A stretch of DNA of 60,263 nt from a virus. Location: IMG/VR virus record IMGVR_UViG_3300039002_000009, positions 1-60,263 of that record, one strand, 5' to 3'. Positions 24,100 to 47,697 of this stretch are shown here, piece after piece. The translations under genes and the position numbers were made by a program. The notes beneath the pieces are model-generated. The model made no database searches and was not told the origin of the DNA. It saw nothing but the letters and a program-made list of their open reading frames with translations. Each line of letters starts with the position of its first letter. Position 1 is the stretch's first letter.

Positions 24100-27000
24100 A
24101 GTTTCCTGTCCCAACTGGCAACACTGTTGAGGAGCTTCAGCGATGCTTCCAGCAGCTTGCCATGTACATGAAACAGCACGTTTCATCGGCAACGCAGGCG
24201 GTCCAGCAGGCAACTACACAAGCGATTCAGTCGTCGGGTGCAGGATCTGCATCATCGATTCCAGGTCCCCGTGGGCTAGCGGCTACGATTGAGATCGGGA
24301 ATGTGACAGGCGGAACGGCGCCAAGTGTGGTCAACTCTGGGACTAATACAGATGCGATTTTTGACTTCGTACTCCAAATTGGAGACACTGGCCCTACTGG
24401 ACCAACCGGTGCGACTGGCCCTCAAGGTGTCACTGGGGCTACTGGATCCCAGGGGGATACCGGCGCTCAGGGCATAACCGGTGATACAGGACCTCAGGGT
24501 GCTGCAGGACCATCTGGTCCTCAAGGCCCAACGGGTGCAACAGGTTCCCAGGGAATCCAGGGCTCGGTTGGGCCAACAGGAGCAACTGGGTCTCAGGGAG
24601 ACCAGGGCATCCAAGGCATCCAGGGCGTTGCTGGACCTACGGGTGCTACGGGTAGCACCGGTCCTCAGGGACCATCGGGATCAACTGGAGTACAGGGGCC
24701 TGTCGGACCTCAGGGTATTCAAGGGTTCCAGGGGATGACTGGCCTTCAGGGACCAACTGGCGCGACTGGACCCCAAGGACCTACTGGTCTTCAGGGTCCT
24801 CCGGGAGTGACTGGACCTACTGGTGATACGGGCGCGGTCGGCGCTCAAGGAGCTATAGGCCCTCAAGGTCCTCAGGGTAACGCGGGGGCTACAGGGGCTC
24901 AGGGGCTGACTGGTTCCACAGGCCCCCAAGGGGCTCAAGGTCCCCAGGGTGTACCAGGGGCAACGGGTGCTCAGGGGCTTCAAGGCATTCAAGGCATTCA
25001 AGGCCCTACTGGACCAACCGGTGCGACTGGAGCCCAGGGATCACAAGGGGCTCAGGGTCCCCAGGGATTACAGGGGATCCAAGGAGTTCAAGGCCCGGCA
25101 GGGACTAATGGGAACACGGGTGCAACTGGCCCACAGGGGCCAGCCGGTCCTCAAGGCCCAACGGGTGCAACTGGGCCGGCTGGTCCGACGCTTTCAGGAC
25201 CGGGGAATCAAGTCGTCGCCACGCCTGATGGTTCTACTGGAGCATCGGGGCTGCGTTCTCTTGTTGCGAATGATATTCCTTTACTTACCACGTCTAAGAT
25301 TAGTGATCTTGTTCCCTCGCCGACGCTTGGAATCTATACAGGATTTTCGGATACTTCGGCACCTGAGATTAGCTATGATTCCACGGCTCAGAAGATCACA
25401 CTTTCAGGAACGTTCACGGCTTATTACAAGGGTGTGTTGGTCCCCGCCATCACCAATGGATATGTGAGTCCGGCACACACGAATACGGCGGGGCATGACT
25501 ATTGGCTCTACTACGATGGCGTATCGATCCAATGGGGAACCGATACGTTCCCAGGTTTCGACAAGCTTCTGATCGCATTCGTGCATTATGGAGCAACCGA
25601 TAAATTTGGGTGCCGAGAGCCTCATGGGTGTGCTTATCCTTGGCCTTCTCACCAGGAAGATCACCGAAAGATTGGAACCTATCGCCAGTCTGGAGGTTCT
25701 CTTTCTGGCTATGTTTTGGCGAGCACGACCGCTGCGGATCGCAGACCAGCCGTATCCGCGTGCGTTATCTATGACGAGGACATCCCGACGACCAATGGGG
25801 CACTGGCGGCTGGGACCTACTCGCAGCTATACCTGACAACGTCTGGAATTACAACTTCAGCACTGGGCGCTTCCGACATCATCCCCTTGTCGGGGAGCAA
25901 TCCGTACTATAATCAGTTCTCAAGCCCCAACTGGGTCCAGACGCTTATGCCCGCGAATTCGGTTGCGTCTGTGTGGCTCATCGCTATCCCAGTTGCTTCT
26001 GATGCGACGAGCCAGGCATATCGGTTTGTCTGGCTTCAGCCCCAGTGGATCACGCAAGCACAGAATTCATCCTCTGGTGCTTTAGCAACCGCCTTGGCGA
26101 ATGAACTCCAAACCACGACAGCTTCTTTGAACTTTGGAGACTTATTCGCATCCGTCCCCGAATATATTGCGATTGAACGAATTGTTGTCCAGTATACAGG
26201 TGGTAATTGGACGATCGTTAACGTATCGGATTTGACGGGGTCACGGACTAATGTTGTACAGTCCCCTGGGGGGATCTGGCTATCGTCCGTGACAACGGAT
26301 TCGACTCTTACAGGGAGCGGTACTCCTGCGAGCCCCCTCGGCGTGAGTAGCACCATCGCTACAGATTATGGCATCGCGAAGATCCATCAACTTTCAACAG
26401 ACCCCGACATCACCATAGATGCCAATTCTCAAAGGATTGTCTATGGCCAAAGCATCATTGAGGGGAATGAGGTTATTTACGGGCAAGAGATCATCTATGG
26501 CAACCCTGAAGTTCCTGTGGATTTAACTGATTTATCAATCTCATTGGGTGCAGATGGGATAACACATAATTACAAATATATAAATGTAAGCACTAAATCA
26601 TTCACTTGCACCATAAATATACTTACGAACGGTATAGATGGATCAAGTGCTGGGGTTCCTGTAATTTCCACTTTCTATGATATTTATGTAGCGCGCAAAT
26701 TATCAGATGGGGTTGTCCATGGGACGGTCTTCCAGAGAGGGAATGTAGTTAATTTCCCCAATGGGTATGGCGCACCTAAATATATTGGTACGTGTGTAAC
26801 CAGATCTGATGCTAGTTATTTGATCCCAATGCGATGGAATGGAAGACATGCAGAATATGTAATGGATAATTCCATTATAACATCATGGCTAGTGATTGCT
26901 TCAGGTAACGTTGGCACAACCGCAGGCGTATTCGCATCTATCGCGGGGCTTGCCCCAACCGATGCGGCGCGGTATCACGTTGTAGGATATGCTCCTAGTG

Positions 27001-27191
27001 GTTATATTACAGATGTATTTACTAATACACTGGTCGGGTCACGAATTGGACGAGCATTTGGTGCTCTTTCTGTCAATGGCTGGGAAGCCTTCTGGGTCAA
27101 TAATAATGACTCGGGGATTTACTGGGGATCCAATAATTCAGGATGTTGGGTTGCTATATTAGGATGGGAAGACAATGACGTTATTTTATAG
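24096..27191 (+). CDS. collagen-like tail fibre, 1031 aa
   Basis: The N-terminal ~60 residues (coiled coil [21 protein letters not shown]) probably attach the fibre to the virion. Residues about 97-365 are Gly-X-Y repeats rich in [10 protein letters not shown] and GIQG, the collagen triple-helix pattern. Then comes a domain with [21 protein letters not shown] and RRPAVS, seen in many phage fibres, and a beta-rich tip. The last ~220 residues are encoded by visibly more AT-rich DNA with different codon use. Trimeric receptor-binding fibre is the likely role. ATGA overlap with the preceding gene. Confidence 0.85.
24386..25190 (+). repeat. collagen-like Gly-X-Y coding repeat
   Basis: About 800 nt of 9-nt-periodic sequence built from GG(N) CC(N) AC(N)/CA(G). 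Repeats differ at silent positions, so the DNA is diverged though the protein is regular. Such tracts recombine and change length. Confidence 0.9.
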
Positions 27192-31802: not shown

Positions 31803-32284
31803 TCATCCATCGCGTGCAGACCAGTGGCTTCGGGGTTGCTGAACCTTCGCCGGAGAAGATCCGCGAGATGGTCTACGCTTTGGAAGCTAGCCTCAAGGGT
31901 CTACCCCAAACAGAATTGCCCCTCACTCACAAATTCGCAGATGGCCTCTACTACCGGGAGATCTTGATCCCCAAGGGGTGTTGGCTCACGGGGCGTGTCC
32001 ACAAACAAGCTGATATGAATATCGTCTACTATGGCGATATTGAGGTCCTTGTGGAGGATGGGACGTTTAAGCGTGTTGTTGGGCCGTGCTCTTTCTCGGG
32101 TAGGGCTGGGCTCAAACAGTTCGGGATTGCCAGCGAGGATACTCTGTGGGCTACGGTTCACCATACGCACTTGACAGACTTGGATGAAATCGAGAAAGAA
32201 CTGTTTGAAGATGAAGAGTCCACATTTGATTTTAAGACGGGGGAGGTGCTTCCATGTCGGCAGCTACAGCCGCAACTGTCATAG
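31799..32284 (+). CDS. cupin-like protein, 161 aa
   Basis: GTG start with GGAGG upstream, overlapping the previous stop. The centre (YREILIPKGCWLTGRVHKQADMNIVYYGDIEVLVEDGTFKRVVGP) has the spacing of a cupin barrel, with a late WATVHHTHLTD as possible metal ligands. Role unknown; may pair with the glycosyltransferase. Confidence 0.55.
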   Translation: MIIHRVQTSGFGVAEPSPEKIREMVYALEASLKGLPQTELPLTHKFADGLYYREILIPKGCWLTGRVHKQADMNIVYYGDIEVLVEDGTFKRVVGPCSFSGRAGLKQFGIASEDTLWATVHHTHLTDLDEIEKELFEDEESTFDFKTGEVLPCRQLQPQLS

Positions 32285-32889
32285 GCGCGGGAGTCAACAT
32301 CTACGGCGCCATGCAGGCTGGCAAAGCGGGCCAGCAGCAAGAGAACCAGGCGAGCACTGCTGATCAATTGGCCTTGATGCAATATGAGCAGAATCAGCAG
32401 ATCGCCAAAACGCTCGAAGCCCGCCAGCAGAACCTTGTGGATATTCCCCTTACGCGCAAGATCCAGGAACTCGAAGGCAAGAAGCTGACTGCCGGTGGCC
32501 ATCAGGCTCTAGACCGTTTCAATTTCGAGATGGGCAACAACCAGCGGGCTATCGAGGAAGCGGCTCCAGCGGCGGGAAGCGCGGCAACGGGTGCCCGAGA
32601 ATTGACCAATCAGTTCCGGAGAGCCCAAGGTGTCGCCGGGATCAATCTTCAGGACCAGGCTACAAAAGACGCGGAGATGGGAAGCTATTTGAACCTCGCA
32701 CAACAGACTCCCGGATGGGCAAACATTGCGGCCAATGCCAATGTCCAGACCGGAGGGGCCTTTGAACGTCAGGCGGCGACCCAGCGTGGACTTGCTCAGC
32801 AGGACTTCGCCAATGAATCGAGTAGCTATGCCGCAGCGGCGAAGGGGCTTAGCACGCTTGCCGATATGTATGCGACTGGGAATACATAG
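32254..32889 (+). CDS. ejection (internal virion) protein 1, 211 aa
   Basis: N-terminal hydrophobic Ala/Gly segment (residues 2-25), then Gln/Ala-rich helices. Podovirus ejection proteins have this composition and come in a block of three, as here. Overlaps the cupin-like gene by 31 nt. Probably part of the trans-envelope channel for DNA entry. Confidence 0.65.
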   Translation: MSAATAATVIGAGVNIYGAMQAGKAGQQQENQASTADQLALMQYEQNQQIAKTLEARQQNLVDIPLTRKIQELEGKKLTAGGHQALDRFNFEMGNNQRAIEEAAPAAGSAATGARELTNQFRRAQGVAGINLQDQATKDAEMGSYLNLAQQTPGWANIAANANVQTGGAFERQAATQRGLAQQDFANESSSYAAAAKGLSTLADMYATGNT

Positions 32890-32898
32890 GAGGATGAC

Positions 32899-34503
32899 AT
32901 GCCTGGAATGGGACTAACGGCAGGGATCGGCCAGGCCCTCGCGGCTGGGACCTCTGAATACCAGAATAAGTGGGAACAGGAGAGAACCCGCAAACGGCAG
33001 GAGGATATCCAGAATACCCTTTTGACTCGCGAGAAGGAGCAGTACGACGCGCAGCAGCAGACCCAGGAAGCCCAGGATATGCTTGGTGCGAGTAACCTCC
33101 AAGCTTTCGCTGACCCAAATATCAACCCCTTCCACATTGCCGAACAGACGGTGATGGGTCTACGGAATCCCCAGACGCCTCAAATCCCTCAAGCGGCTGC
33201 GCCAGGTACGCCACAGGATGTCCAGACGGCCCAGCCTACGCCAACCGCACCGGGGGAACGTCCCGTAGCTTCTGGGGCCATTTCTGCCCCAGCGTCAACC
33301 CCTACCCCTCCGTCATCGACGGGGGGGCTTGCCAATATCAAGGTTCCAGGGCCAGTATCGGCCCCGATCGCTCCTCAGACTCAGGCTCTTCCTACGGGGT
33401 GGAAACCCATGGACCCTGGGTTAGCTCAGATTTACGATCGCTATGAACCCATGCGTCAGCGAGTAGAAGCCGATATCGCTAAGATCAAGGCCCGCTCGGG
33501 AGGTGATCCGAAGGTCGAGAATCGCATGATGTCGGCTTATGGGAAGGTCCTGGAGAAGGATCCTAACTTCATGGCTATGAACAGTGCCATTCAGAGCTAT
33601 GTAGGGAATGCCCAGACGGAAGCAGTCGCTCAGAAGGCTAATAAATTCCTGGATGCCTTCGAAAGTGGCGATACCCAGACCCTAGAATCCATGTTTGGCA
33701 AAGGCGCTCACGCCGGCAAAGACCCTCAGACCGGGATGCCGGGAGTGATCCTTCCAAATGGCATGGTCATAGGGCAGAACCTCGCACGCGCACGGGTTAT
33801 GCTACGGTTGGGGATGATCGATAACAAGAACTTCTCGGATATCGCTAAAGAGGAAACGATCAAGACGGCGGATATGCTCAAAGCCAAGATGGAGATTGAA
33901 GGCAGGATCCGCGAGGCAGGGGTTGTCCGTCGCAGCACATCCTTCAGCGTGTCTCAACCCGCAGGAGTGACGCAGGCAGCAGAAGTTCAGCGCACAGCCG
34001 AGCAGAACGCTCGCATGAATGGATCGAGTCCCCAGGATGCCGCAAGGGCTGGCGTGAAAGCCAAGCTTGACTACCTGATGACGAATGTATCCAAGATCGA
34101 TGATAAACAAGAAGTCGAAAAGGCGAAGATTGCGCAGCAGAACGCTAAGAACCTCCAGGCCGCAGTGAAGGCTATTTATGCTCCTCCCGATGCGGATGGG
34201 TTAGTTAAGCCTAAGATTGACCAGAAGCAGGCTCTCGCCACCTTCGACACGATTGCTAAGACAGATCCTGAAGGAGCATTGGTTTATTCACAGGCTCTTC
34301 CTCCGGCGATGAATGATTACATTACAGCCCAGCTCAATGTGCGAGAAGCAAAAAAGGCGACAGAAAGCGGATTGACCGGAAACGTTTCTAAAGGTGCTCA
34401 CGGCAAGATGCCAGAGCCCAAGAGCCAACCCGAGACAATGCAACATAACGGCAAGACCTATTACCGATGGCCTGATGGGACGTACCATACCAAGAAGCCA
34501 TAG
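32899..34503 (+). CDS. ejection (internal virion) protein 2, 534 aa
   Basis: Gln/Ala-rich helical protein with a Pro/Thr-rich linker (about 95-165) between an N-terminal coiled coil and a longer C-terminal helical part. Located between two other ejection-type genes. AGGAGGATGAC precedes ATG. Confidence 0.65.
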   Translation: MPGMGLTAGIGQALAAGTSEYQNKWEQERTRKRQEDIQNTLLTREKEQYDAQQQTQEAQDMLGASNLQAFADPNINPFHIAEQTVMGLRNPQTPQIPQAAAPGTPQDVQTAQPTPTAPGERPVASGAISAPASTPTPPSSTGGLANIKVPGPVSAPIAPQTQALPTGWKPMDPGLAQIYDRYEPMRQRVEADIAKIKARSGGDPKVENRMMSAYGKVLEKDPNFMAMNSAIQSYVGNAQTEAVAQKANKFLDAFESGDTQTLESMFGKGAHAGKDPQTGMPGVILPNGMVIGQNLARARVMLRLGMIDNKNFSDIAKEETIKTADMLKAKMEIEGRIREAGVVRRSTSFSVSQPAGVTQAAEVQRTAEQNARMNGSSPQDAARAGVKAKLDYLMTNVSKIDDKQEVEKAKIAQQNAKNLQAAVKAIYAPPDADGLVKPKIDQKQALATFDTIAKTDPEGALVYSQALPPAMNDYITAQLNVREAKKATESGLTGNVSKGAHGKMPEPKSQPETMQHNGKTYYRWPDGTYHTKKP

Positions 34504-34514
34504 AGGAGAGTATC

Positions 34515-37500
34515 GTGGCTGATCCTACCTTCATCGACGATGCATCTCCCGAAGCTTCTGGCACTCAGTTCATCGATGATGCCGGCCCCTCCAAGGAGAT
34601 GTTCCCCCGTCCCGTCTCCGATGTGATGCGAGGGACTCAGCCCGCCACCCCTCAGCCCCCAAAAGAAGAGCCTGGGTTCTTCAAGAGCGCCTGGAACGAG
34701 GCGTTATCAAATCAGGCCGAGATCGACAAGACTCGCCAGGAACAAGGTAATCTTCCGGCGATTTGGCAAACCCTGCGAATGCGGGCCAACGAGGTCAAAG
34801 ATGTGACCAAACAGGTCGGCATGGCCGTTCCCCGGCTGGCAGGCGAGATGGCGACACTCCCCACGAAGTCATCCCGAATTATCAATCAGTCTCTAGATTA
34901 TCTAGAAAAGGAACATCCAGAGGCTGCTCAATATTTCGAGACGTTCTTTCCAATGATTCAGCCGATAACCTTGGCTCGCGAGGACGAACGGCGGAAAGGA
35001 TGGGACCCCACAGAGGCTTCCAGGATGGCCAATGCCTGGGTTGAAAAGAATATCCAGAAACCAGTCGAGAACGTCAAGCCTACGACATCCGCCGGGAAAG
35101 TGGCGCGAGCTGGGAGTGACATTGCCGCCGTAACGGCTGGGACACTCCTTGCCCCTGAAGCGGCAGTTCCTTATTTCGTTTCCAGTGCTGGAATCAACAC
35201 GACCAACATGGCCATGGAACAACTCCAGGGTGACCCCGATGCCGTCCCTAAAGCCTGGAGCGCGGGACTCCTAACCGCTGCGGCAAACTATGCCGGTATG
35301 AAATATATTCCCGGTTTATCCGGGAAGATTGGTTCGATGGTTACGGCCCGCATCTCTCAGCCAGCCATTGCCGCATTCCTAAATGTGGGCATCCGTGGCT
35401 CCGCCATGGGCACCTTCATGAATACGATGGACAACGCCATCGCCAAGACATTCTATGACCCAAATCGGCCATGGGATCAGGGGATGGGCCAATCGGTAAT
35501 CCAGATGCTAGGGTACGAAGCCGCAGGACTCCCTGAAGGCTACCAGCACGAAAAGGCGGTACGAGACCTGCGTGAGGGTGCTGATATCGCCCTGAAGATC
35601 AACATGGCCTCAGCTACTGGTAAGGGCGCGATGGCGGATTTATCGCCTAAGCTCGTCCAAGAGGGGATGAGAGGCGTGGAGTTCGGCGAGAAAGTCAGCG
35701 ACGAAGCAAATAATGCCTATTCGCAGTTCAGGGACAATTTTGTCCGAATTGAAAAAGGAGGCTCAAATGCCAATGAAGAAGGGCAAATCCGACAAAACGA
35801 GGAACAAAAACATCGCGGAAGCAATGCACTCAGCGAAGCAGACCGGCAAGTTCGGCAACCAGAAGGGGCCGTTCAAGAAACTCCAGAAGTCGATCGAAGC
35901 AGCAGCGTACCGCCAGCAGGACGAGGCCAAGAGGAAAGCGCGGAAGAGGTAACGAGTCTTCCTAGAACCAATGTCCCACGTTCTCAGAACACCGCCTTGT
36001 CAGGCCGGGTAACCGAAGAGGGTCAATGGGTAGATAGGAACTGGGATGAGTTTGCTTCAGTCTATGCCGATCACCCTGACACAGCAGGAGGTAAGATCCT
36101 TTCTGCTGATGCGATCGCTGATCTTTTGCCGTCCATTCAGGAGAATCCGGTCCAGGGGCATGGGGAAGCCGTCAATTCTGGCTATCCAAGTAAGATTGTT
36201 TTGGACCAGTACGATAGACGGATGGCTCAGCCTATTTCCTCTCCGGAAGATGAAAACGTTCTCGTCATGATGGGGAATCCGGGTTCAGGGAAGACCACGG
36301 TGGCCCGCAAAAATGCATCTGGATATGGGACGGTGATCGATTCCCCTGGGGCAGATCAGCGGGGTCTAATCGATATCATCAATACCGCGCTCCGGAATGG
36401 ACGTAGGGCGGATCTTGTTATGGTCCATGCTCCCCTTGAAGAGGCCGTGGGGAGAAATATTGGGCGTCAGGGCGAGATTGGCCGGACGGTTCCGATTGAG
36501 TCTCAAGAATCTCTTGAAGCATCGACACATCTCGCATTTCGCCGGGCATGGGAAACATTTGGAGACCCAGCCTATGGGGATCAAGTATCTTTTACCTATA
36601 TCGAAAATCCCAATGATAAAAACGCACAAAATGCCTGGACAGGTGAGGAAGCCGTTAACCAGTCAGGAGAAGTAAGGCGATCTAATAGCAAAACTAATTT
36701 GCTAGATCGAGCGATCGGAGCCTATATTAGGGCAAAAGGAGAGAGAGATGTTTCCCCAGAAGCGCAGTCAATCTTTGAACAAGGAATCGAAGATCAAGTC
36801 AAAGCGCATCCCGCATCTGTCGAAGGAAGAGCTGTTTCAGGGGATCGAGGAGTCGCATCAGGAATGGCTGAAGAGACCCCGGCACCCGGCGCTCCCGCCT
36901 CGCAAGAAGTAGAGGATATCCGTGCCACTCAGAACATTCCACAGGAGACGCTAGAAAAGGCCAGGGTTGGAACGGCCAAGATGCCTCCGCCCGTCCCCAC
37001 GTCTGCCCGTAAGGCGCAAGCCGAAGACCTTGTTCGTGAGATTGTCCCCGATAAGGCTACTCGTGCAGCCATCCATGCCACTGGGATTAGTGGAAAGAAC
37101 CCGACTCCCGAAGACGTAGTGTCCGAAGCGCTGATCGCGCAGCCCAAGAAGTCTCCATTTGAAAAGAATGCTCCCGAGGCTGGAGCCATTAGGCTCCCCG
37201 AGAAGATCAACATGGGCAAGGTAATGACCCGGTTGGGAGAAGTCCTTAAGGCATCTGCCAAGGAACCGCTCGAAGCATTCAAGAATCTCAGCAACGGCGC
37301 GGTCCTTAAACTAGCCAAAGCCGAGGATGCCGCAGGGAAACTTCAGCATGCCTACGATCCGTCTAAGCCAGGAGTCTTCCCTGGATTCGCCGATTCCCCC
37401 ATTGAGGGAAGTCAAAAACCATTCCTCAAAAAAGACCTACAAGTTGGCAAACTGGGCCAAGAATTCAGATCTCCGAGCTTCCAGCTCGCACCTTATTTCG

Positions 37501-39584
37501 AGAACGGCGAGAGCCCTTCTGTGGACCGAGAAATGGTTTCTACGGATGCCATTGCTAAGGCTAGTGCGGCTACAAGCTTTGTCCGAGATGTCTATCGCCG
37601 GAACAAGATCGTTGATGATAGCACGATGATCGATCAACGCATGTCTCCCCATCAGAAAGCGATTCGTGAAACTCTCGAAAAACTGACCCCTCTTATCAAA
37701 CAGCGCGAAGCCTTGGTTGAGTCTGCGGATATGTTCGATGAAGAACGGTCCAGGGATATTGTCTCGAAGCGGTTGCAGGAATTTGATAGAGACAATCAGG
37801 CCGAAATGGAGCGCCTCCTCGAACAGAAGGATAGGCTCTATGATGCGGCTAAAAAGGAGATCCAGTCCGTAGCTCAGAAATCTTCGGATGCTCGCGTTGC
37901 TCTTTGGATGGATTCCGACCATCATCCAGTCTGGCTACAGGGGATGATACAGCCGAACGAGATCCAAGCAGCCAAGGAGATGACGTCGTTTATGGAAGAG
38001 GCTAAACGCGCTGGCGAGAAGCGTGGCTTGGCGATGAGAGATGAGCCCTACGTGACTCATCTATTCAAGCCTGTCGAAATGTATGCGAGAGACCAGAATG
38101 GGGAATCTGCACGCATCGCTCGGGATGTCTTGGACTTCCACCGTCGGCAGGAAGGTAGTATCAATCTGATGCCAAGCATCCATGCCGTGATGGACTACTA
38201 TGTCCCTACGATCAGCCGTAAGCTGGCTATGCAGCCTTTCCTGAACAAATGGTACACAGGAGGCAAGAACGACTATCTTGATCCCAATAGCAAGTACTAC
38301 GCTCCGCATTTCGGGGAATGGATGCAACGGGAGATCAACGAGATGGAACATCCCCGGCAACTCGGGATTGTCGAAAAGGGATTCGGAGTTATCAAGGATG
38401 CGGAGATCACTCGTCTTTTAGCTGCTAACCAGCGGACAGCGGTGAAGCATCTTGTCGGCAAGCTAACCAATCTTGTCGGGCTTCATCATGCCTACACGCT
38501 CCCCGGTGCGACCAATTACATGGCGCTTATGGCTCGCCGTGCGGAGAACCTGCCTCTCGTCGGTAAAGCCTTTGAGGCGACCACGGGGAAAATTCTTGAT
38601 GCCACTCACATGAGCAAGGAGGATGCCCAACTTGTTCAAACCCTCATGTCAAACCTTGCCCTCAATCGACAAGTTCGCAATGCCCTTTATGAGAATGCTC
38701 TTATCGCTGAATATCAGGAACCCATTCTGAACGCCTACTTTGGTAAGGGCGTACGTGGTATAGCAGGTAAGGCCAAGCGGGGATATATCTGGACCCGCAA
38801 TGCCCTCTCTCAGCCTGTGGCTGCCGCCGAAGCATTCGAGAATGGAGTGAACTTCTTGTCCTCCGTTCAGCATGGCGAAGCTGCTGGTCTGACTCCCGAT
38901 CAGAATCTCCGTGGGGCTATCGTGAATATGCTGGCCTACTCCCAGAGAGGCGGCCATGATGCGACACGTTTCGTGAAGAGCCCCATTGGTCGCGTAGGGA
39001 CAGCCTTAACGCAGACTCCATCTAAGATGATGGAACTTTACGCAGACATCGTTCGTAGGGGCGTGACGGGAGAGAAGGATATCTACGGCGGGGATGGCAC
39101 GGCGAATCTTGTGCGTGCGATCTTAGCCTTTGGAGCCGTGAGCACGTTGGGTGTCCTAACCAAAAACAAACTATCTAGGATGCTCATTCATCCACCCATC
39201 ACGAATACAGATTGGTTCTCGGATGCGACTCAATGGGCCTATCATTCTGCTATGGGTCACAAGCAAAAAGCCCTTGATGCCAAGGCGAGAATGCAGGGGA
39301 GCAACTGGGGACCGGCTAATCTAACTCCTGTCACGGATATCATGGCAGACGCTTACGCTGCGATGAACTCACCAAAGGGATTCCTGAAGAAGACCCCAGC
39401 GGTTCAGCAGATCAGATCTGAATTGCCTAAGAGCATGGGGGGCAAGATCCCGAAGGGGTATGAAGATACGCTTCACTACCTCACTACATCTCCTACCGAA
39501 GAGGCAGAGAAGGGGTGGCAGGAAGCCGCAAGAAAGAGAGGACTCCGCAAGATCAAGGCTGATGAAAAGCAAGGCAACGACTAG
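34515..39584 (+). CDS. giant ejection/polyvalent protein with zeta-toxin-like P-loop domain, 1689 aa
   Basis: GTG start with AGAGGAGAG upstream. Residues 1-400 are helical with hydrophobic segments, as in injected proteins. Residues 418-480 are low-complexity and overlap a nested gene in another frame. Residues about 505-720 contain a P-loop (GNPGSGKTT, 587-595) followed by VMVHAPLEEAVGRN and ESLEASTHLAFRRAW, resembling zeta-toxin/kinase domains. The rest is long and helical. The layout fits large polyvalent proteins delivered with DNA; the kinase could act in the new host cell early in infection. Confidence 0.7.
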   Translation: MADPTFIDDASPEASGTQFIDDAGPSKEMFPRPVSDVMRGTQPATPQPPKEEPGFFKSAWNEALSNQAEIDKTRQEQGNLPAIWQTLRMRANEVKDVTKQVGMAVPRLAGEMATLPTKSSRIINQSLDYLEKEHPEAAQYFETFFPMIQPITLAREDERRKGWDPTEASRMANAWVEKNIQKPVENVKPTTSAGKVARAGSDIAAVTAGTLLAPEAAVPYFVSSAGINTTNMAMEQLQGDPDAVPKAWSAGLLTAAANYAGMKYIPGLSGKIGSMVTARISQPAIAAFLNVGIRGSAMGTFMNTMDNAIAKTFYDPNRPWDQGMGQSVIQMLGYEAAGLPEGYQHEKAVRDLREGADIALKINMASATGKGAMADLSPKLVQEGMRGVEFGEKVSDEANNAYSQFRDNFVRIEKGGSNANEEGQIRQNEEQKHRGSNALSEADRQVRQPEGAVQETPEVDRSSSVPPAGRGQEESAEEVTSLPRTNVPRSQNTALSGRVTEEGQWVDRNWDEFASVYADHPDTAGGKILSADAIADLLPSIQENPVQGHGEAVNSGYPSKIVLDQYDRRMAQPISSPEDENVLVMMGNPGSGKTTVARKNASGYGTVIDSPGADQRGLIDIINTALRNGRRADLVMVHAPLEEAVGRNIGRQGEIGRTVPIESQESLEASTHLAFRRAWETFGDPAYGDQVSFTYIENPNDKNAQNAWTGEEAVNQSGEVRRSNSKTNLLDRAIGAYIRAKGERDVSPEAQSIFEQGIEDQVKAHPASVEGRAVSGDRGVASGMAEETPAPGAPASQEVEDIRATQNIPQETLEKARVGTAKMPPPVPTSARKAQAEDLVREIVPDKATRAAIHATGISGKNPTPEDVVSEALIAQPKKSPFEKNAPEAGAIRLPEKINMGKVMTRLGEVLKASAKEPLEAFKNLSNGAVLKLAKAEDAAGKLQHAYDPSKPGVFPGFADSPIEGSQKPFLKKDLQVGKLGQEFRSPSFQLAPYFENGESPSVDREMVSTDAIAKASAATSFVRDVYRRNKIVDDSTMIDQRMSPHQKAIRETLEKLTPLIKQREALVESADMFDEERSRDIVSKRLQEFDRDNQAEMERLLEQKDRLYDAAKKEIQSVAQKSSDARVALWMDSDHHPVWLQGMIQPNEIQAAKEMTSFMEEAKRAGEKRGLAMRDEPYVTHLFKPVEMYARDQNGESARIARDVLDFHRRQEGSINLMPSIHAVMDYYVPTISRKLAMQPFLNKWYTGGKNDYLDPNSKYYAPHFGEWMQREINEMEHPRQLGIVEKGFGVIKDAEITRLLAANQRTAVKHLVGKLTNLVGLHHAYTLPGATNYMALMARRAENLPLVGKAFEATTGKILDATHMSKEDAQLVQTLMSNLALNRQVRNALYENALIAEYQEPILNAYFGKGVRGIAGKAKRGYIWTRNALSQPVAAAEAFENGVNFLSSVQHGEAAGLTPDQNLRGAIVNMLAYSQRGGHDATRFVKSPIGRVGTALTQTPSKMMELYADIVRRGVTGEKDIYGGDGTANLVRAILAFGAVSTLGVLTKNKLSRMLIHPPITNTDWFSDATQWAYHSAMGHKQKALDAKARMQGSNWGPANLTPVTDIMADAYAAMNSPKGFLKKTPAVQQIRSELPKSMGGKIPKGYEDTLHYLTTSPTEEAEKGWQEAARKRGLRKIKADEKQGND
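35767..35952 (+). CDS. nested small basic protein, 61 aa, inside the giant gene
   Basis: An AAGGAGG 5-7 nt before ATG, about as good as any in the window, starts a complete frame wholly inside the giant gene but in another frame. The product MPMKKGKSDKTRNKNIAEAMH... is like the small Lys-rich MPMKKGKS... proteins often found in phages. In the giant protein the same stretch is featureless Glu/Gln/Arg/Ser. Either the small gene was inserted and the long frame stayed open, or both are expressed. Confidence 0.65.
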   Translation: MPMKKGKSDKTRNKNIAEAMHSAKQTGKFGNQKGPFKKLQKSIEAAAYRQQDEAKRKARKR

Positions 39585-39593
39585 GAGGTCATC

Positions 39594-39770
39594 ATGGTTA
39601 AATGGATTTCTAAGGCAATCAAGCACCCTGGAGCACTCCACAAACAGCTCCATGTCCCTGAAGGCGAAAAGATTCCCCAGTCCAAACTCAATGCTGCAGC
39701 CAAGAAGGGCGGCAAGTTAGGCAAGCGTGCGCGTCTTGCCAAAACGCTTGGGAAGATGCACAAGAAATAA
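39594..39770 (+). CDS. small basic phage protein, 58 aa
   Basis: AGGAGGTCATC precedes ATG. The sequence MVKWISKAIKHPGALHKQL, EGEKIPQSKL, GKRARLAKTLGKM matches a small Lys-rich protein common in phages near ejection or capsid genes; its role is not known. It closes the structural operon. Confidence 0.75.
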   Translation: MVKWISKAIKHPGALHKQLHVPEGEKIPQSKLNAAAKKGGKLGKRARLAKTLGKMHKK

Positions 39771-40271: not shown

Positions 40272-42044
40272 ATGAGAATCGCAGACCTCATCGTCCAGCA
40301 GCTTGTCGATAAAGGAATTACAGAGGCATTCATCGTTACAGGTGGGGCCTCTATGTTTTTGACGGATGCTCTCGGTCGTCATCCCGACATGCATGTCACC
40401 TGCATGCACCACGAGTATTCATGCGTAGCTGCGGCAGAGTCCTACTTCCGCCTCACGGGCAAGGTGGCCTGCGTGTGCGTTACCTCGGGGCCAGGAAGCC
40501 TCAACACGCTCGCTGCGGTGCATGGGGCCTACACGGACTCGATGGCTGTGGTGATCCTGTCAGGACAAGCAAGGACCGATACGATCGTGGTTGATTCCGA
40601 GGAATACCGTGACGGATTGCGCCAGTTAGGGGACCAGGAGTGCAACATTGAGGGGATTGCCAGGCACATCGTAAAGAGAATGGTCTATGCCCCGTCGTCA
40701 CCTGGTGGATGTAGCGTAAATTGGCTGAGGGACATCAGTATGACTATTGATCTCGCATCTTCCGGGAGGCCGGGTCCGGTTTGGATGAACATTCCTGTAG
40801 ACATCCAATCCCTTGAAACCAACTGGTCCGATATTAAGGGATTCTTGGCAGAGGACGACATCAACCTGGATCATCGGAATTTTATCACGATGATGGAACA
40901 TCTCTATGTGGCCAAGCGTCCCGTCATCCTTGTTGGTTCGGGCCTCCGTATCGCAGGGGCTATCGATTTGTTCCATTGTGTTAGGGGATCAATCCCGGTG
41001 GTCACGGCCTTCAATGCCCATGATGTTATTCCTTCGGATGATCCATACTTCGTGGGACGTTCTGGAACCATCGGGGACCGAGCTGGAAATCTGGCGGTGC
41101 AGAATGCTGACTTCCTTTTAATCCTTGGATGTCGGTGTAACATCCGGGAGATTGGTTACAACTGGGGACAATGGGCTCCGCACGCATACAAAGTGATGGT
41201 CGATATCGACGAAGCTGAGCTGGGCAAGAAAACGCTCAAAGTTGATTTACCGATCCATGCTGATCTTCATGCCTTTTTAGAGAACATGAGGACCATCCAT
41301 TTGCAATGGCCCGAGTGGCTCGCGCAATGCAAGGGTTGGCAGAAGAAGTATCCAGTAGGCCCATCGATCGGGTCACTACCGACTCGTGACGCAAGAAAGA
41401 TTAACCCATATATATTCTTGCGATGTCTGTGGGATAGCCTTTCCGATGATGACATTGTGGTTTGCGCAAATGGATCTGCTACAGTGATGACCTATCAAGT
41501 TGCCGACATCAAGAAAGGTCAGCGCCTATATTCCAACTCTGGCAGCGCAGCGATGGGCTGGGTTCTATCTGCGGCTATCGGTGCGGCCATGGGGCGAAAA
41601 GGTAAGCGTGTGATCTGCATTGATGGTGACGGGGGCTTCATGATGAACTCCCAGGAACTTGCCACCATCGCGTATCACAAGCTTCCGATCAAGATTGTTC
41701 TTCTCGATAACAACGGCTACCACAGCATCCGGCAGACCCAGCAGCATTACTTCCCGGACTCGCCCATCGGCTTCGATCCCTCGAATGGCGTCGGCTTCCC
41801 GAATTGGGAACAACTCGTGAAGGCTTACGATATCCCATATTTCCGCATGTTCGAGAATGCGCTGAGTTGTGATGGCCCTGCATTCTGCCACGCCATCGTA
41901 GACCCAGATCAACCATTCGAGCCCAAGCTGATGTCAGAGATGCGGCCAGATGGGACGATGGTGAGCCCAACCCTGGACAATATGTGGCCATTCTTATCGG
42001 AAGAAGAACGACGGGCGAATGATCTTTGGAGAAAGGAATCTTGA
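40272..42044 (+). CDS. thiamine diphosphate-dependent acetolactate synthase-like enzyme, 590 aa
   Basis: Full-length ThDP enzyme of the AHAS/IlvB type. Catalytic Glu48 lies in MHHEYSCVAAAES, followed by GKVACVCVTSGPGSLN. The cofactor motif runs GDGGFMMNS (452-460) to DNN (479-481). A central Rossmann domain spans about 195-340. Such enzymes make acetolactate or, in sugar pathways (YerE type), attach a two-carbon unit to a keto-sugar. With NeuB-like, SDR and epimerase genes alongside, sugar modification is more likely than amino-acid synthesis. No regulatory small subunit is present. Confidence 0.85.
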   Translation: MRIADLIVQQLVDKGITEAFIVTGGASMFLTDALGRHPDMHVTCMHHEYSCVAAAESYFRLTGKVACVCVTSGPGSLNTLAAVHGAYTDSMAVVILSGQARTDTIVVDSEEYRDGLRQLGDQECNIEGIARHIVKRMVYAPSSPGGCSVNWLRDISMTIDLASSGRPGPVWMNIPVDIQSLETNWSDIKGFLAEDDINLDHRNFITMMEHLYVAKRPVILVGSGLRIAGAIDLFHCVRGSIPVVTAFNAHDVIPSDDPYFVGRSGTIGDRAGNLAVQNADFLLILGCRCNIREIGYNWGQWAPHAYKVMVDIDEAELGKKTLKVDLPIHADLHAFLENMRTIHLQWPEWLAQCKGWQKKYPVGPSIGSLPTRDARKINPYIFLRCLWDSLSDDDIVVCANGSATVMTYQVADIKKGQRLYSNSGSAAMGWVLSAAIGAAMGRKGKRVICIDGDGGFMMNSQELATIAYHKLPIKIVLLDNNGYHSIRQTQQHYFPDSPIGFDPSNGVGFPNWEQLVKAYDIPYFRMFENALSCDGPAFCHAIVDPDQPFEPKLMSEMRPDGTMVSPTLDNMWPFLSEEERRANDLWRKES

Positions 42045-43111
42045 TGGGAACAAATCTATTCAACGATCTCTTTGTTCTAGAAGCCGCAAATAATCATCTT
42101 GGGAGCATTGAGCGCGGTCTCCGCATCGTGACCGAGTATGGCCATGTCGTGCGCTACCATGGTGTCAAAGCCACGATCAAACTCCAACTTCGCGACCCGA
42201 ATACATTCGTTCACAAAGACTTTCGCGAACGAGAGGACATCCGCTACATCAAGAAGTGCATGCAGTGCCGAATGCCGCGTGAGCATTTCAAATCACTTGC
42301 CGAGGCAATTCGAAGCTATGGGTGTATCGTCTCTGCGACGGCCTTTGATGAGCCTAGTGTCGATCTTGCTGAAGAAATCGGCTGTAAGATTCTCAAGATC
42401 GCGAGTTCAGATGTGACGGATTGGGGTCTTCTGGAAAAGATCGCATCCAAGCGCATCCCGGTGATTGCCTCTCTCGGTGGGACATCCTTAGAGGACATGG
42501 ATAAGATCGTGGACTTCTTTGGCAAGCGCGGCATTCCCCTCGGAATCAACCATTGCGTTGCAATCTATCCAACCGAAGACGAAGAATTAGACCTAAATCA
42601 GATCGACTTCCTGAGGCAACGGTATCCAGGAATGACGATTGGCCTCAGCACCCATGAGCATGGGGACTGGCATACAAGCATGGCTATCTCTTATGCCAAG
42701 GGTGCTCGTATGTGGGAAAGACATGTAGAAGTTGATCATGATGGCATCAAGGTTTCACCCTATTGTTCTCTTCCTCATCAGATCGACGAGTGGTTCCGCA
42801 CCTATGCCAAGGTGAAGGCCATGTGTGGAGCACCGGGGACCGAGAAGCGCATCCCTCCTCGCAAGGAAATCGAATACCTTAACTCGCTTGTGCGTGGGGC
42901 TTATGCTTATCGGGCTATTCCGGCTGGACACGTTATTCAGCGAGGAGACCTCTATTTGGCGGTGCCCCTTCAGAAGGGCCAGCTCAGTTGTCGTGAATTT
43001 ATTCTTGGCGAGAGGTTAACGAAGTGGCTAGATAAAGACGCCCCCTTAACGGTTGATCATATCGATCTTGACCCTTCTCTCAAAAATCTCATTGCTGATC
43101 GGGGCTTGTGA
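42044..43111 (+). CDS. NeuB-like sialic acid synthase family protein with SAF domain, 355 aa
   Basis: A TIM barrel with LEAANNHLGSIERG and KATIKLQLRD near the N-terminus, KILKIASSDVTDWGLLEKIA in the centre, and HCVAIYPTEDEELDL, all corresponding to NeuB blocks. The last ~65 residues (AYRAIPAGHVIQRGDLYLAVPL) form the antifreeze/SAF domain that closes the NeuB active site. NeuB enzymes condense phosphoenolpyruvate with a sugar to give nonulosonic acids. No CMP-sugar synthetase is in the window, so activation would use a host enzyme or the product is atypical. Start overlaps the previous stop. Confidence 0.85.
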   Translation: MGTNLFNDLFVLEAANNHLGSIERGLRIVTEYGHVVRYHGVKATIKLQLRDPNTFVHKDFREREDIRYIKKCMQCRMPREHFKSLAEAIRSYGCIVSATAFDEPSVDLAEEIGCKILKIASSDVTDWGLLEKIASKRIPVIASLGGTSLEDMDKIVDFFGKRGIPLGINHCVAIYPTEDEELDLNQIDFLRQRYPGMTIGLSTHEHGDWHTSMAISYAKGARMWERHVEVDHDGIKVSPYCSLPHQIDEWFRTYAKVKAMCGAPGTEKRIPPRKEIEYLNSLVRGAYAYRAIPAGHVIQRGDLYLAVPLQKGQLSCREFILGERLTKWLDKDAPLTVDHIDLDPSLKNLIADRGL

Positions 43112-44280
43112 TGCCGCGTGTATCTATTATTTTGACGACTTTTCAGCGTCCCGCGATGCTTCTCGAAGCAATCAATGGTGCTCTCTCTCAGACCTATGAA
43201 GACTTCGAACTCCTGGTGATGGACAATGCCAGCACAGACTATACCGGTGATGTGGTTCGACAGCTCAAGGACCCCCGATTGCTCTACATCCGCAGACCCG
43301 TAAACAATGGCAGTGCGGCGAACTGGATGGAAGGTCTGTCAAGGGCTAGGGGAGAATTGATCCTTAACACGCATGACGATGACATCATGCACCCAACCAT
43401 GCTAGAACGCGAAGTCGAGGTGATGGACGCCAGTGGAGCGAAGATGGTTGGATGCAATGTGAGAATTGTGGACAAGAATGGCGGTCTAATGCAGGATCGA
43501 TTTAGCCCGGATGCAACGGATCGTATTTTTACTCGTGGGGAATTCATTCGCGCCTATATGACGGAACGCTTCACATTCAAATGTTCTACACAATTGACTC
43601 GGAGATGCGACCATGATTGGATGTCAGGCTCTGGGGATCCGGGAATCGGTCCTTTGGGCGACATCTACATGGTTTGTCTCGCCAATTCGAAAGGGTCTGT
43701 TGTCCACATTGCCGATCCTCTTCTTGATTACCGCGTCCATGAAAGTGGTGAGACATTCACGCTCGACATCACGCCGAGTGATATCAAGTTGCACATGAAG
43801 GTAAGGGATCTGTGCAGATCCTCGGGTCTTGATTGGTGCTTGCCCTATATTCATTCATCTATGCTCCGATATCGCATTCTCCAGTCGCTCATCCATGGAG
43901 TTAAGCCTCGGTCTCTTCTCCGCAAACTCGGTGGTATCGAAACCGAATTCCCTAACAACTTCAGCCTCCCAGTCTTCCCAGACGGACGAGCACGTAAGTA
44001 TCAAGGTAAACGAGTCGCCATCGTTGGCAGCCTTCTTAATGCATTTCTTTTGGCAGAAGAATGCCTTGCGTCCGGGGTGAAGGTGGCTTACTTTGTAGAC
44101 AACAATACCAAGCGTCAAGGGAAGCGTCTCGATGATCTCAACATCTATCCCTTTAACAGGCTCCAAACCGACCCCGTTGATCTCGTTATTTCTTCTTGTG
44201 AGAAACGATCTATCGATCAAGTCCGGCCCATGGTTAGCAAATATACCGACACACATGTTGTTTCTTGGAGGGACCTGTGA
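43111..44280 (+). CDS. family 2 glycosyltransferase, 389 aa
   Basis: GT-A start PRVSIILTTFQRPAMLLEAINGAL, then MDNASTDYTGDV and the metal-binding LNTHDDDIMHPTM. After about residue 290 a second, Rossmann-like domain follows (KRVAIVGSLLNAFLLAEECLASG), which is not part of a standard GT2 and may bind a nucleotide sugar. It would transfer the sugar made by the operon. ATG overlaps the NeuB-like stop. Confidence 0.85.
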   Translation: MPRVSIILTTFQRPAMLLEAINGALSQTYEDFELLVMDNASTDYTGDVVRQLKDPRLLYIRRPVNNGSAANWMEGLSRARGELILNTHDDDIMHPTMLEREVEVMDASGAKMVGCNVRIVDKNGGLMQDRFSPDATDRIFTRGEFIRAYMTERFTFKCSTQLTRRCDHDWMSGSGDPGIGPLGDIYMVCLANSKGSVVHIADPLLDYRVHESGETFTLDITPSDIKLHMKVRDLCRSSGLDWCLPYIHSSMLRYRILQSLIHGVKPRSLLRKLGGIETEFPNNFSLPVFPDGRARKYQGKRVAIVGSLLNAFLLAEECLASGVKVAYFVDNNTKRQGKRLDDLNIYPFNRLQTDPVDLVISSCEKRSIDQVRPMVSKYTDTHVVSWRDL

Positions 44281-44468
44281 ATATTAATCTGATGGAAGAA
44301 ATAGCAGAGTGGATCATCATGCCGACTGTTAAGCTGACCGAAAATTCGCCTCGAAAATGGATTAGAGTAATAGGGTTCTTGGGATTTGTGTTCACAATGC
44401 CCTGCATAATCATTGGAGGCATATTCCTAGCTATAGTGATGATTATTGAAACAATTCAAGAGATATGA
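44277..44468 (+). CDS. small membrane protein, 63 aa
   Basis: GTG start with GGAGGG upstream, overlapping the glycosyltransferase stop. One strong membrane segment (about residues 34-58, FLGFVFTMPCIIIGGIFLAIVM). May anchor the glycan enzymes at the membrane, or act in exclusion; no homologue recognised. Confidence 0.6.
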   Translation: MNINLMEEIAEWIIMPTVKLTENSPRKWIRVIGFLGFVFTMPCIIIGGIFLAIVMIIETIQEI

Positions 44469-44479
44469 TGGGAGCGAAC

Positions 44480-45178
44480 ATGTCGCAGAAAATGGTTGCC
44501 ATCACTGGAGCAAGCCGTGGGATCGGACTTGAACTAACGCGGAAGTTCTTGGATATGGGATGGAATGTCCATGTCCTTGTAAGACGTTTCAGCGATGAAC
44601 TACGGGAACTTTATCGTAATCCTAAGCTCTCGTTCACCCTCTGTGATCTTGAAAATCCGGAAGCGATCGATAGGCATAGCCTCCCCTTCCTAGACGTTCT
44701 GATCAATAACGCGGCGGCTGTAGATTGGCAACCGCATGTTGATTCGGTCAAAACGCTTCACATGAGCCGAGGTCTTTTGGAGAAGGTCTATGCTGTCAAT
44801 GTGTTCGCTCCCCTTCTCCTTGCACAAAGGTTCGTCCTCAACCCAGATGCCCGCATCGTGAATGTCGTTTCTAGCGTGGCTGAATGCACTCATCCCGACA
44901 TGCAGACGGACTTCCAAGCGGCTTATACTTCGTCCAAAGCCGCACTTCTCGTGCTTACCAAGAAAATGGCTGCGGCATTCGGGCCTCGGGGAGTCGTGGT
45001 GAACGCAGCATGCCCTGGATGGGTGAAGACCCGTATGGGTGGTAAAGATGCTCCGCTTTCAACCTCACAGGGAGCAGATAATATCATCGCCGCGTGCCAA
45101 CTAAATTCAGATCGTCCCGTGACGGGCCGCTACTTCAAGGAAGGTAAGCTGGCTAAATACATCTCGGAATCGCTATGA
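44480..45178 (+). CDS. short-chain dehydrogenase/reductase, 232 aa
   Basis: TGASRGIG (9-16) binds NAD(P); NNAAA near 77-80; catalytic Ser131/132, Tyr149 and Lys153 (YTSSK) are all present, so the enzyme should be active. In this context it probably reduces a keto-sugar made by a neighbouring enzyme. GGGAG precedes ATG at 44480. Confidence 0.85.
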   Translation: MSQKMVAITGASRGIGLELTRKFLDMGWNVHVLVRRFSDELRELYRNPKLSFTLCDLENPEAIDRHSLPFLDVLINNAAAVDWQPHVDSVKTLHMSRGLLEKVYAVNVFAPLLLAQRFVLNPDARIVNVVSSVAECTHPDMQTDFQAAYTSSKAALLVLTKKMAAAFGPRGVVVNAACPGWVKTRMGGKDAPLSTSQGADNIIAACQLNSDRPVTGRYFKEGKLAKYISESL

Positions 45179-46170
45179 AGACATGCCGAAAGATTGAATC
45201 CGGGTTGAGGCTTGGGCCAGAAGGAATCACGCCGTGTTGCATGGGTGTGTGGTCTGGTCCGACCTATTGGGCTCCCAAGGAGATCAAGAACCTCACGATC
45301 ACCAAACAAATGGTGATGCAGAAACGCCAGGAACTTCATACAAAGCTCAATGATCCCGACAGCGATATCGTATGCAAGCGGTGCTCTCAGGTAATCGAGC
45401 AGACACGCGAGCAGCGTTTCAACGAGATAGGCCATGTGAATGTCGCGCATTTCACCTATTGTAACCTCCGATGCGATTACTGCTCTTACACCAAGGCCAA
45501 TGACTTTCGCGCTCCGCTCTATGATCCTCTTCCCTTGCTACAGCAGTTCAAGCTGTCCGATCGCGCACGGGACTGTTGGGTAGATCTCAATGGAGGAGAA
45601 CCAACGCTTCTGCCAAACCTAAAGGATTATATTGACTACTTTCGATCAATCAACGCCTTCATCTCAATGTTTACAAATGGTGTCATTTTCAGTCCCGCAA
45701 TTCACAATGGACTTGTCGATGGCACGATCAATCAGTGCATCGTGTCTCTTGACGCAGGAACTCCCGAGACGTTCAGAATGCTCAAGCGGCGAGATTCTTT
45801 CGACGAGGTAACCAATACGCTTCGCAGATATGCCGTAGCAGCCAATAACGGGAAGGGCAAGCTGATTGTCAAGTACGTGTTCTGTCCCATGAATTCGTGG
45901 AACCAAGACATCCAGCGATTCCCATCCCTGATGAAAGCTATCCGGCCTTCGCAGGTTTGGCTTATGGTGGACTTCACGCCTTTTGCATCGGACCCCCCTA
46001 TTGTCTGTGATCACTCCCGAGAGGTCTATGCATACGCTAGGATCTATCGAGAACTCAAGAAGCTTGGAATAGACGTTCGGCACTTCATGCGCGAGCAGAG
46101 TGGATGTCTCACGCCCGAAATGATTTCCCTCCAAGATAAAATCGAAGAAGAGATCAAAGGACTGCCATGA
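45175..46170 (+). CDS. radical SAM enzyme, 331 aa
   Basis: The iron-sulfur motif CNLRCDYC has Cys96, Cys100 and Cys103, followed by the SAM-binding GGEPT (140-144). Extra cysteines near the N-terminus (CC at 21-22; CKRC at 67-70) may hold another cluster. Radical SAM enzymes in sugar clusters catalyse dehydration, epimerisation or methyl transfer. Substrate is unknown. ATGA overlap with the SDR gene. Confidence 0.85.
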   Translation: MKTCRKIESGLRLGPEGITPCCMGVWSGPTYWAPKEIKNLTITKQMVMQKRQELHTKLNDPDSDIVCKRCSQVIEQTREQRFNEIGHVNVAHFTYCNLRCDYCSYTKANDFRAPLYDPLPLLQQFKLSDRARDCWVDLNGGEPTLLPNLKDYIDYFRSINAFISMFTNGVIFSPAIHNGLVDGTINQCIVSLDAGTPETFRMLKRRDSFDEVTNTLRRYAVAANNGKGKLIVKYVFCPMNSWNQDIQRFPSLMKAIRPSQVWLMVDFTPFASDPPIVCDHSREVYAYARIYRELKKLGIDVRHFMREQSGCLTPEMISLQDKIEEEIKGLP

Positions 46171-46733
46171 GCGTTAACCAATATCGTCAGGCTCTAGAGA
46201 ATATCGGATCTCAGATGAAGGAAAAGTGTGTTCGGGGTATTTGGTACTATACCCTGGAACTCAGAGTGAAGGTCACAGGTGAACGGCTCCGAACCCTGAC
46301 TGATGCTTTCCGTGGCCCAGACAAGAAAGGTGATAAACGCCTTTGGTCCTATGTAGACAAAACTGATCCTGGTGGTTGCTGGATTTGGATCGGGTCTAAT
46401 GTAGGTGGGTATGGCTATCATTTCTCAAATGGGAAGCGATACAAGGCTCACAAACTGGTTTATACAAAGCTCAAGAAAGATATTGGAACTCGACGCTTGC
46501 GTAACACCTGTGGATGCACCCTCTGCGTTAACCCTGACCACTGGGAGCCCATGGCGAAGACGCGCGGAGTCTATAGGATTAGCAAGAATCTATGGGGTGC
46601 CTGGATTTGGATCGATGGTAAGACAAAGGTCCTTGGATCATTCCCCACAAGAGCCAAGGCCCTACAGGCCAGAAGGCTTGCCGAGATGGCGGCTATTCAT
46701 GTAAAAGGGAAGAGACATGCCAAAACTGCCTGA
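46167..46733 (+). CDS. HNH-endonuclease-like protein with altered motif, 188 aa
   Basis: GCWIWIGSNVGGYGYHFSNGKRYKAHKLVY and later CGCTLCVNPDHWEP match phage HNH homing endonucleases. The first His of the usual RHxC motif is replaced by Asn (LRNTC), so cleavage may be impaired. The C-terminal part (GVYRISKNLWGAWIWIDGKTKVLGSFPTRAKA) looks like an AP2-type DNA-binding domain. It overlaps neighbours at both ends, so it is now embedded in the glycan operon rather than free-standing. Confidence 0.7.
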   Translation: MSVNQYRQALENIGSQMKEKCVRGIWYYTLELRVKVTGERLRTLTDAFRGPDKKGDKRLWSYVDKTDPGGCWIWIGSNVGGYGYHFSNGKRYKAHKLVYTKLKKDIGTRRLRNTCGCTLCVNPDHWEPMAKTRGVYRISKNLWGAWIWIDGKTKVLGSFPTRAKALQARRLAEMAAIHVKGKRHAKTA

Positions 46734-47697
46734 TCGCGATATTCAAGAGGTTCTCCGAGATGTCCCCTGGAAAGACCTGAAGGGAGCCAAGATTCTCCTC
46801 TCTGGCGGGTCAGGGTTCGTGGGGTCCTGGATGGTGGATACATTCTACCATGCCAATCTGGAATATGAACTCGGAGCCACAATGACGGTCTTGACACGCG
46901 ATACGTGGAAGACCCTGCGCGGAATGGTCCACCTCCCCCAGAACGGATCGGTGACCGTACGTAAAGCCGATCTGGCTGATTCTTTCCCATCTCTAGGGTG
47001 CGGGTACACCCATATCGTTCATGCTGCATCGGAGAACCATAGAGACAGACTTTACATGCATGAAACGATTGTCGAAGGGACCAAGAAGATGCTGGAGGCT
47101 GCCTATCGTGACGGAGTGCATCGCTTCCTCTACCTCAGTTCAGGTGCGGCAGCTAAAGACCTCGATTCTATGGATCCCGAGAATGTCTACGGTATCTCTA
47201 AGAAGGCCGCCGAAAACCTGTGCACGATTTTTGTCCAGCGCGGTCTTCATGTGGCCGTTGCACGGGGCTATACCTTCTCAGGGCCACGTTTGCCTCTGGG
47301 CAAGAAGTTTGCGTTGGGAGAATTCGTAGAGGCCGGCCTGAAAGGTATGACCATTGGGACCACGAGCGGCAACACGGTTAGGTCCTACCTCTATGCATCT
47401 GATATGGCCACTTGGCTCTGGAAGATTCTTCTCAAATTCGAAAAGGGATCTGTAACTGATGTGGGATCAGATCGACCAGTCAGCATGGATACCGTTTCGT
47501 CTTATGTGGCTGCTCTGTGTGGAGTTAACCACAACTGCTATCTGACTGGCAACCCCGACACCTATTATCCGGGGTCCAGGGATGGTCGGCTTTTGGTCAA
47601 GGTCCCCTTCGAAGAGGGCGTTGAACGCATGGTTGACTGGTATAGGCATAACATGCCTAAAGATCTTGACAAACCAGGTAAAGAATTCTATCCTTAA
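46717..47697 (+). CDS. NAD-dependent sugar epimerase/dehydratase, 326 aa
   Basis: Extended SDR: GGSGFVGS (30-37) for NAD binding, Tyr158 and Lys162 (YGISK) for catalysis, and SSGAAA near 141-146. These enzymes act on nucleotide sugars (4-epimerase, 4,6-dehydratase or reductase). It is the last gene of the operon. GGGAAGAGAC precedes ATG. Confidence 0.85.
   Translation: MPKLPDRDIQEVLRDVPWKDLKGAKILLSGGSGFVGSWMVDTFYHANLEYELGATMTVLTRDTWKTLRGMVHLPQNGSVTVRKADLADSFPSLGCGYTHIVHAASENHRDRLYMHETIVEGTKKMLEAAYRDGVHRFLYLSSGAAAKDLDSMDPENVYGISKKAAENLCTIFVQRGLHVAVARGYTFSGPRLPLGKKFALGEFVEAGLKGMTIGTTSGNTVRSYLYASDMATWLWKILLKFEKGSVTDVGSDRPVSMDTVSSYVAALCGVNHNCYLTGNPDTYYPGSRDGRLLVKVPFEEGVERMVDWYRHNMPKDLDKPGKEFYP

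Follow-up and report, generated by a model that had tools for sequence, protein, structure and literature searches.

We propose that the open reading frame at 35767..35952 (+ strand) of the window, the whole 60,263-base stretch analysed here (virus record IMGVR_UViG_3300039002_000009, positions 1 to 60,263), is very probably a functional nested gene: a microgene of an older family, embedded in a disordered linker at the module junction of a giant gene, with both frames presumably translated. As judged from sequence, we most likely have here a genuine small gene that predates its surrounding frame, and the arrangement recurs.

The giant gene (34515..39584, + strand; 1689 aa, GTG start) is a single open frame and the last in a block of three adjacent genes that lies downstream of the tail genes; the other two, of 211 aa (32254..32889) and 534 aa (32899..34503), lie on the same strand, and relatives keep the gene order. 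Its N-terminal domain (34515..35759), which has hydrophobic segments, is homologous in relatives and is directly followed by the nested gene. A variable middle region carries a P-loop (residues 576–600; 36240..36314), and a conserved C-terminal region (residues 720–1686; 36672..39572) is 43% identical to that of the relative G040. Another basic small gene, ordinary and free-standing (39594..39770, + strand; phrog_15706, E=2.5e-5), lies 3′ of the giant. Comparison of the giant with 50,697 phage records (blastn and tblastn, E up to 0.01) gave no match, and comparison with Pfam gave no domain above cut-off, as against the two or more recognised effector domains expected of a polyvalent protein. 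The first-pass annotation had described the giant as an ejection protein with a zeta-like part. The former label is based on gene order and the hydrophobic segments, and has no family match behind it; the latter we do not retain. The giant does share with Zeta toxin (PF06414) a P-loop in its variable middle, but this match reaches 15.5 bits against a gathering cut-off of 22.3 (E=0.012) and is confined to the P-loop; a match to AAA_33 is likewise weak and below cut-off. The predicted fold of the giant’s C-terminal part (pLDDT 42) was unusable. Elsewhere in the window we noted a 1031-aa tail-region protein (24096–27191) with collagen-like GPTGATG repeats and, after the giant (40272–47697), a run of genes that by eye look metabolic (TPP-enzyme-like, sialate-synthase-like, glycosyltransferase-like, SDR, radical-SAM-like and epimerase-like).

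The nested ORF (+1 frame, 61 aa) is complete, with its own ATG (35767) and TAA (35950–35952) inside the longer ORF of another frame, and a Shine-Dalgarno (SD) sequence, AAGGAGG (35755..35761, + strand), ends 5 nt before the ATG. It spans giant residues 418–480, exactly where the first-pass annotation had placed it, and the accompanying description of the giant frame as low-complexity there also holds: among 1627 windows of the giant, the overlap ranks 18th lowest in entropy and 10th lowest in hydrophobic fraction. The nested product is basic (19 K+R, 5 D+E), and its residues 1–24 match phrog_2423 (E=1.5e-4; profile length 52); when the whole window was searched with this profile in six frames, the nested site was the sole match (E=9e-6). 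The third frame across the nested ORF would give an Arg/Ser-rich peptide containing a stop. The codon log-odds at the overlap are 0.33 for the small frame and −0.02 for the giant frame, and none of 8805 equal-length windows in the window’s genes reaches either the overlap’s +1-frame score or its frame difference. By homology, by codon signature and by recurrence in relatives, this ORF exceeds chance.

The recurrence was established with relatives of the giant that were gathered without the small gene. Initial searches with the giant, as single-protein scans of viral contigs and of genome contigs and as a search of 39 records (33 of 80 loci plus 6 phage records), yielded no relatives; these were reached through a terminase alignment of close kin, which gave 19 loci, 17 of them new and then searched. 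By eye, the large terminase genes of two close relatives (L008, 2–400; L009, 968–1600) have an intein-looking insertion near Walker A. Giants homologous to that of the window, each a single ORF, are present in G040 (1848 aa), G038 (1741 aa) and G034 (2212 aa), and G046 has a giant of 1859 aa that is related to it over the N-terminal part. Two further scans with a giant profile returned the same three genomes again, and a second scan of genome contigs returned none. These four genomes, all located independently of the small gene, form together with the window our unbiased set. In the variable middle, where the window has its P-loop and G040 an acetyltransferase-like stretch, the G034 giant (L115) looks GGDEF-like by eye.

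All four of these relatives contain a nested, basic +1 microgene behind AGGAGG, at codon 403 of the giant in G040, 410 in G038, 593 in G034 and 421 in G046 (417 in the window). The start (ATG or GTG), SD and stop are intact in five of five genomes, and the five small proteins are strongly basic, with 15–19 K+R versus 2–5 D+E. Two small-gene families alternate at this slot. The G034 copy is a near full-length match to phrog_2423 (E=3.9e-21; profile positions 1–46 of 52), whereas those of G038, G040 and G046 belong to a different family, KSxAQ, with the pattern MPxKSKAQ...KEWDKASKGKxLPxK. No second phrog_2423 match was found in the window or in G034, and there was none in the other 18 of the 20 records searched. 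At the overlap, each of the five genomes shows a shift of the codon signature to the small frame, with a difference that is unmatched elsewhere in the same giant. The first-pass annotation had named as its adverse outcome that relatives keep the giant frame and lose the small one; the relatives in fact retain the giant frame together with a nested, SD-bearing gene, the families alternating.

The KSxAQ family also provided a view beyond these genomes. A viral scan gave 55 loci: 14 nested copies, 35 free-standing copies among ordinary genes, and six others, which comprise the N termini of longer proteins (L147, L153, L156, L162 and L163; 123 aa, 528 aa and 290 aa long in the first three) and one broken frame (L168). 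The 14 nested copies all lie out of frame, in an identical relative frame that was checked a second time for each, inside ORFs of 1113–3272 aa (the giants of L136 and L155 being cut by the contig end), and at L157, L158 and L160 the copy is near the giant’s N terminus (codon 45). The giants involved can be dissimilar and carry polyvalent-type domains: Kinase-PolyVal in L185 (E=2.6e-42) and ddrB-ParB in L157 (E=2e-22). That one microgene family is found inside giants at 14 of its 55 loci sampled here puts in doubt the earlier statement that such overprinting is rare. In a poorly resolved tree of 45 small proteins and 53 columns, from which the near-duplicate free-standing copies L141, L154, L165 and L173 were omitted, the nested state needs six changes, of which at least three are forced by supported branches; no bootstrap tree requires just one. 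Comparison of KSxAQ members with the phage records (tblastn) gave no match. A model of the KSxAQ protein, from an alignment that omitted 18 of the 55 loci, shows a predicted pair of helices with a basic tail (pLDDT 83); it has no match with E<1 among solved structures.

Selection on the two frames could be read from codon positions, since the third position of the small frame is position 1 of the giant codon (giant positions 1/2/3 are small positions 3/1/2). Over nine informative pairs of ten tried, which are not independent and exclude L166, substitutions at giant positions 1/2/3 number 55/17/15 in the overlap, a peak at small position 3, versus 143/111/253 downstream and 126/98/176 upstream, where the peak is at position 3 of the giant. 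The same pattern is seen in the pair G040/G046, which was not chosen via the small gene (overlap 9/2/5, downstream 15/10/45). Across all, non-independent, pairs of the 14 nested copies, residue differences amount to 32.8% in the small frame versus 55.9% in the giant frame. The giant frame is constrained too: none of the 35 free-standing KSxAQ copies is stop-free in the corresponding frame (mean 4.5 stops); the other alternative frame is stop-free in eight of the 35. Constraint is thus apparent in both frames, in the small one from relatives and other giants (the window’s own copy is without a close relative) and in the giant one from its openness in five genomes. The earlier proposal of a conserved small gene, overprinted by a giant frame that tolerates the overlap as a disordered linker, is supported by these residue differences and this substitution pattern, by the codon signature in the five genomes and by the low complexity of the overlap. 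Two qualifications apply. Base composition confounds the codon evidence: of the 11 nested loci outside the five genomes, most of which are low in GC, nine have a codon score that favours the giant frame over the small one. Furthermore, these 11 loci were found via the small protein, so their small-frame conservation is in part a product of sample selection, and it is the five genomes (window, G034, G038, G040 and G046) that are free of this bias.

Four other explanations deserve consideration. The ORF might be an accident, an E/Q/R-rich disordered linker that is fortuitously open in +1 and by coincidence resembles a basic small protein. Chance does supply such frames readily: when the window giant was shuffled 500 times among synonymous codons, at least one nested ORF of 45 or more codons with ATG and SD arose in 101 of the shuffles, so an ORF with an SD is insufficient by itself as proof of a gene, and the phrog_2423 match is limited to 24 residues. 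We nevertheless consider an accident very unlikely, given that nested genes of recognisable families occupy the linkers of all four independently found giants, that the codon score is unequalled in the window’s genes, and that substitutions peak at small-frame third positions. A similarly slim chance attaches to the small frame being a fossil, a formerly free-standing gene that was swallowed by the giant and now serves, silent, as linker DNA. The overlap does have the small frame’s composition in all five genomes, as a fossil would, but closely related pairs display a purifying pattern on small-frame codons, and start, SD and stop are intact in all five genomes.

It is still less probable that an upstream and a downstream gene flank the small gene and are joined by an untranslated open stretch or through an error in sequencing. 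From about 35730 to 36030 the coding signal of the giant frame is indeed weak; against this, the window’s giant frame has no SD-bearing start codon after the small gene, and the frame is continuous in five genomes and 11 other giants, even though no free-standing copy is open in it. Least credible of all, to the point of being nearly negligible, is a programmed frameshift in which slippage out of the giant frame into the small one yields a fusion of the N-terminal domain with the small protein. In the window, the region ahead of the nested ATG is indeed open in +1 (ORF from 35713); on the other hand, the small gene has its own start codon and SD in each of the five genomes, the small frame is closed within about ten codons upstream of the start in eight of 14 nested KSxAQ copies, and inspection by eye revealed no correctly framed slippery heptamer.

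Our preferred reading is that of a functional nested gene. Short lysine-rich microgenes, phrog_2423-like in the window and KSxAQ in relatives, exist in other settings as free-standing genes of the ordinary kind; in this phage group they would be embedded out of frame, with their own strong ribosome-binding site, in a linker within a giant and modular protein of the virion. The giant frame would read the microgene one base back, such that lysine codons become a Glu/Gln/Gly-rich, disordered linker; that a lysine-rich gene read in this manner gives such peptides would account for its being tolerated in a disordered linker. By the simplest mechanism, both products would come from one late mRNA, the giant via ribosomes that read through and the small protein via internal initiation, and most of the selective constraint would be carried by the small frame.

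Another aspect of these comparisons concerns where homology between giants begins and ends. In the 3.4 kb that precede the giant, G040 and G046 share 76% identity, and over the giant’s first 1.2 kb they have no detectable similarity; an 86% identity then begins at the nested gene’s SD and runs into the acetyltransferase-like stretch (its Pfam match is below cut-off). The N-terminal part of the G046 giant resembles that of G038, to the end of the small gene. L155 and L184 are homologous over 2.9 kb (90%), with the final 450 bases before the small gene identical, and this homology extends into the small gene as far as its base 121. Among 16 giants, DNA matches over the small gene occur in 72 of 120 pairs, which are not independent; 64 of the 72 matches are confined to the microgene within 20 bases and 61 pairs have no other giant match, and while loci gathered by the small gene are expected to match there, such confinement is not expected. 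The nested gene thus lies at what these homology limits mark as a module junction. The first-pass annotation had suggested that the site is a fusion point of two older genes, an ejection protein and a zeta-like protein. A junction of modules is upheld by the limits in G040/G046 and L155/L184, but the fusion of those two genes is not: the giant is one ORF in all five genomes, no split relative was encountered, and split ancestors are not supported.

An embedded gene at the junction of exchangeable modules would account for giants of different make-up sharing it. We tentatively raise the possibility, which we rate below an even chance, that the embedded microgene acts as a recombination anchor: a stretch unusually conserved because it is doubly constrained, where N-terminal and cargo modules swap between phages, and a general design of modular phage giants that has stayed hidden because gene callers suppress nested ORFs. 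If this were true, a needed small gene at the joint would select for recombinants that are properly joined and in frame. The confinement of DNA matches to the microgene could, however, also come from double constraint alone, which could keep the overlap more alike than its flanks.

As to function, the gene context of phrog_2423 suggests a virion-associated role for the small protein, possibly in binding nucleic acid or the head. Genes of this family mostly lie in the head, packaging or ejection region, near terminase or portal genes, and in a Pbunavirus beside head morphogenesis and protease genes. Searches for fold or solved-structure matches that would assign a function found none. Some of these contexts differ in architecture from the nested gene. 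The label ‘head maturation protease’ at phrog_2423 matches, seen among the 60 of 151 records listed, was considered as a possible sign of nested genes and set aside, the three examined being in-frame N termini. L122, L123 and L124 (at 2501), in Acinetobacter and Plectonema phages, have a phrog_2423-like in-frame N terminus on head maturation proteases. Two of 50 further records contained phrog_2423, the open frames there being no longer than 62 and 65 aa. At L196 (MW202675.1, 7753–12745), a free-standing phrog_2423-like gene, an acetyltransferase gene and an internal virion protein gene adjoin one another in a layout that resembles the modules of the G040 giant; no homology between these three genes and the giants was detectable. 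The window’s product and the phrog_2423 proteins share the N-terminal MPxKKGKSxK...NI motif and basic character, but elsewhere these proteins are free-standing or the N terminus of a protease, and the window copy matches only over its first 24 residues, unlike the near full-length copy of G034.

The polyvalent proteins of phages and conjugative elements are giant and multi-module, and cassette-like recombination is mentioned for them; in the passages of that account consulted here, nested genes do not appear (PMC5512222). The giants that we describe are likewise multi-module, and L185 and L157 carry typical domains of that class, but the window giant does not have one above cut-off. Our search of the literature for this arrangement, by title or abstract opening within open-access PMC, found none. 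Small phage genes nested out of frame are familiar from phiX174 E in D and lambda Rz1 in Rz, where the usual view is that the inner gene originated within the outer one. The likeness to the present case is clear, a complete small gene with its own start in a different frame inside another gene; the difference is that here the inner gene’s families exist free-standing, and it is the outer frame that looks secondary. Overprinting is normally the birth of a new gene inside an old one. Here, older and widespread microgenes, of at least two families and in several lineages, would instead sit inside giants whose frame looks secondary. This opens to testing how a foreign gene can be taken up by a large protein as a linker, and whether embedded genes guide the shuffling of modules in polyvalent proteins. 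Genome annotation may be missing conserved genes of the virion region.
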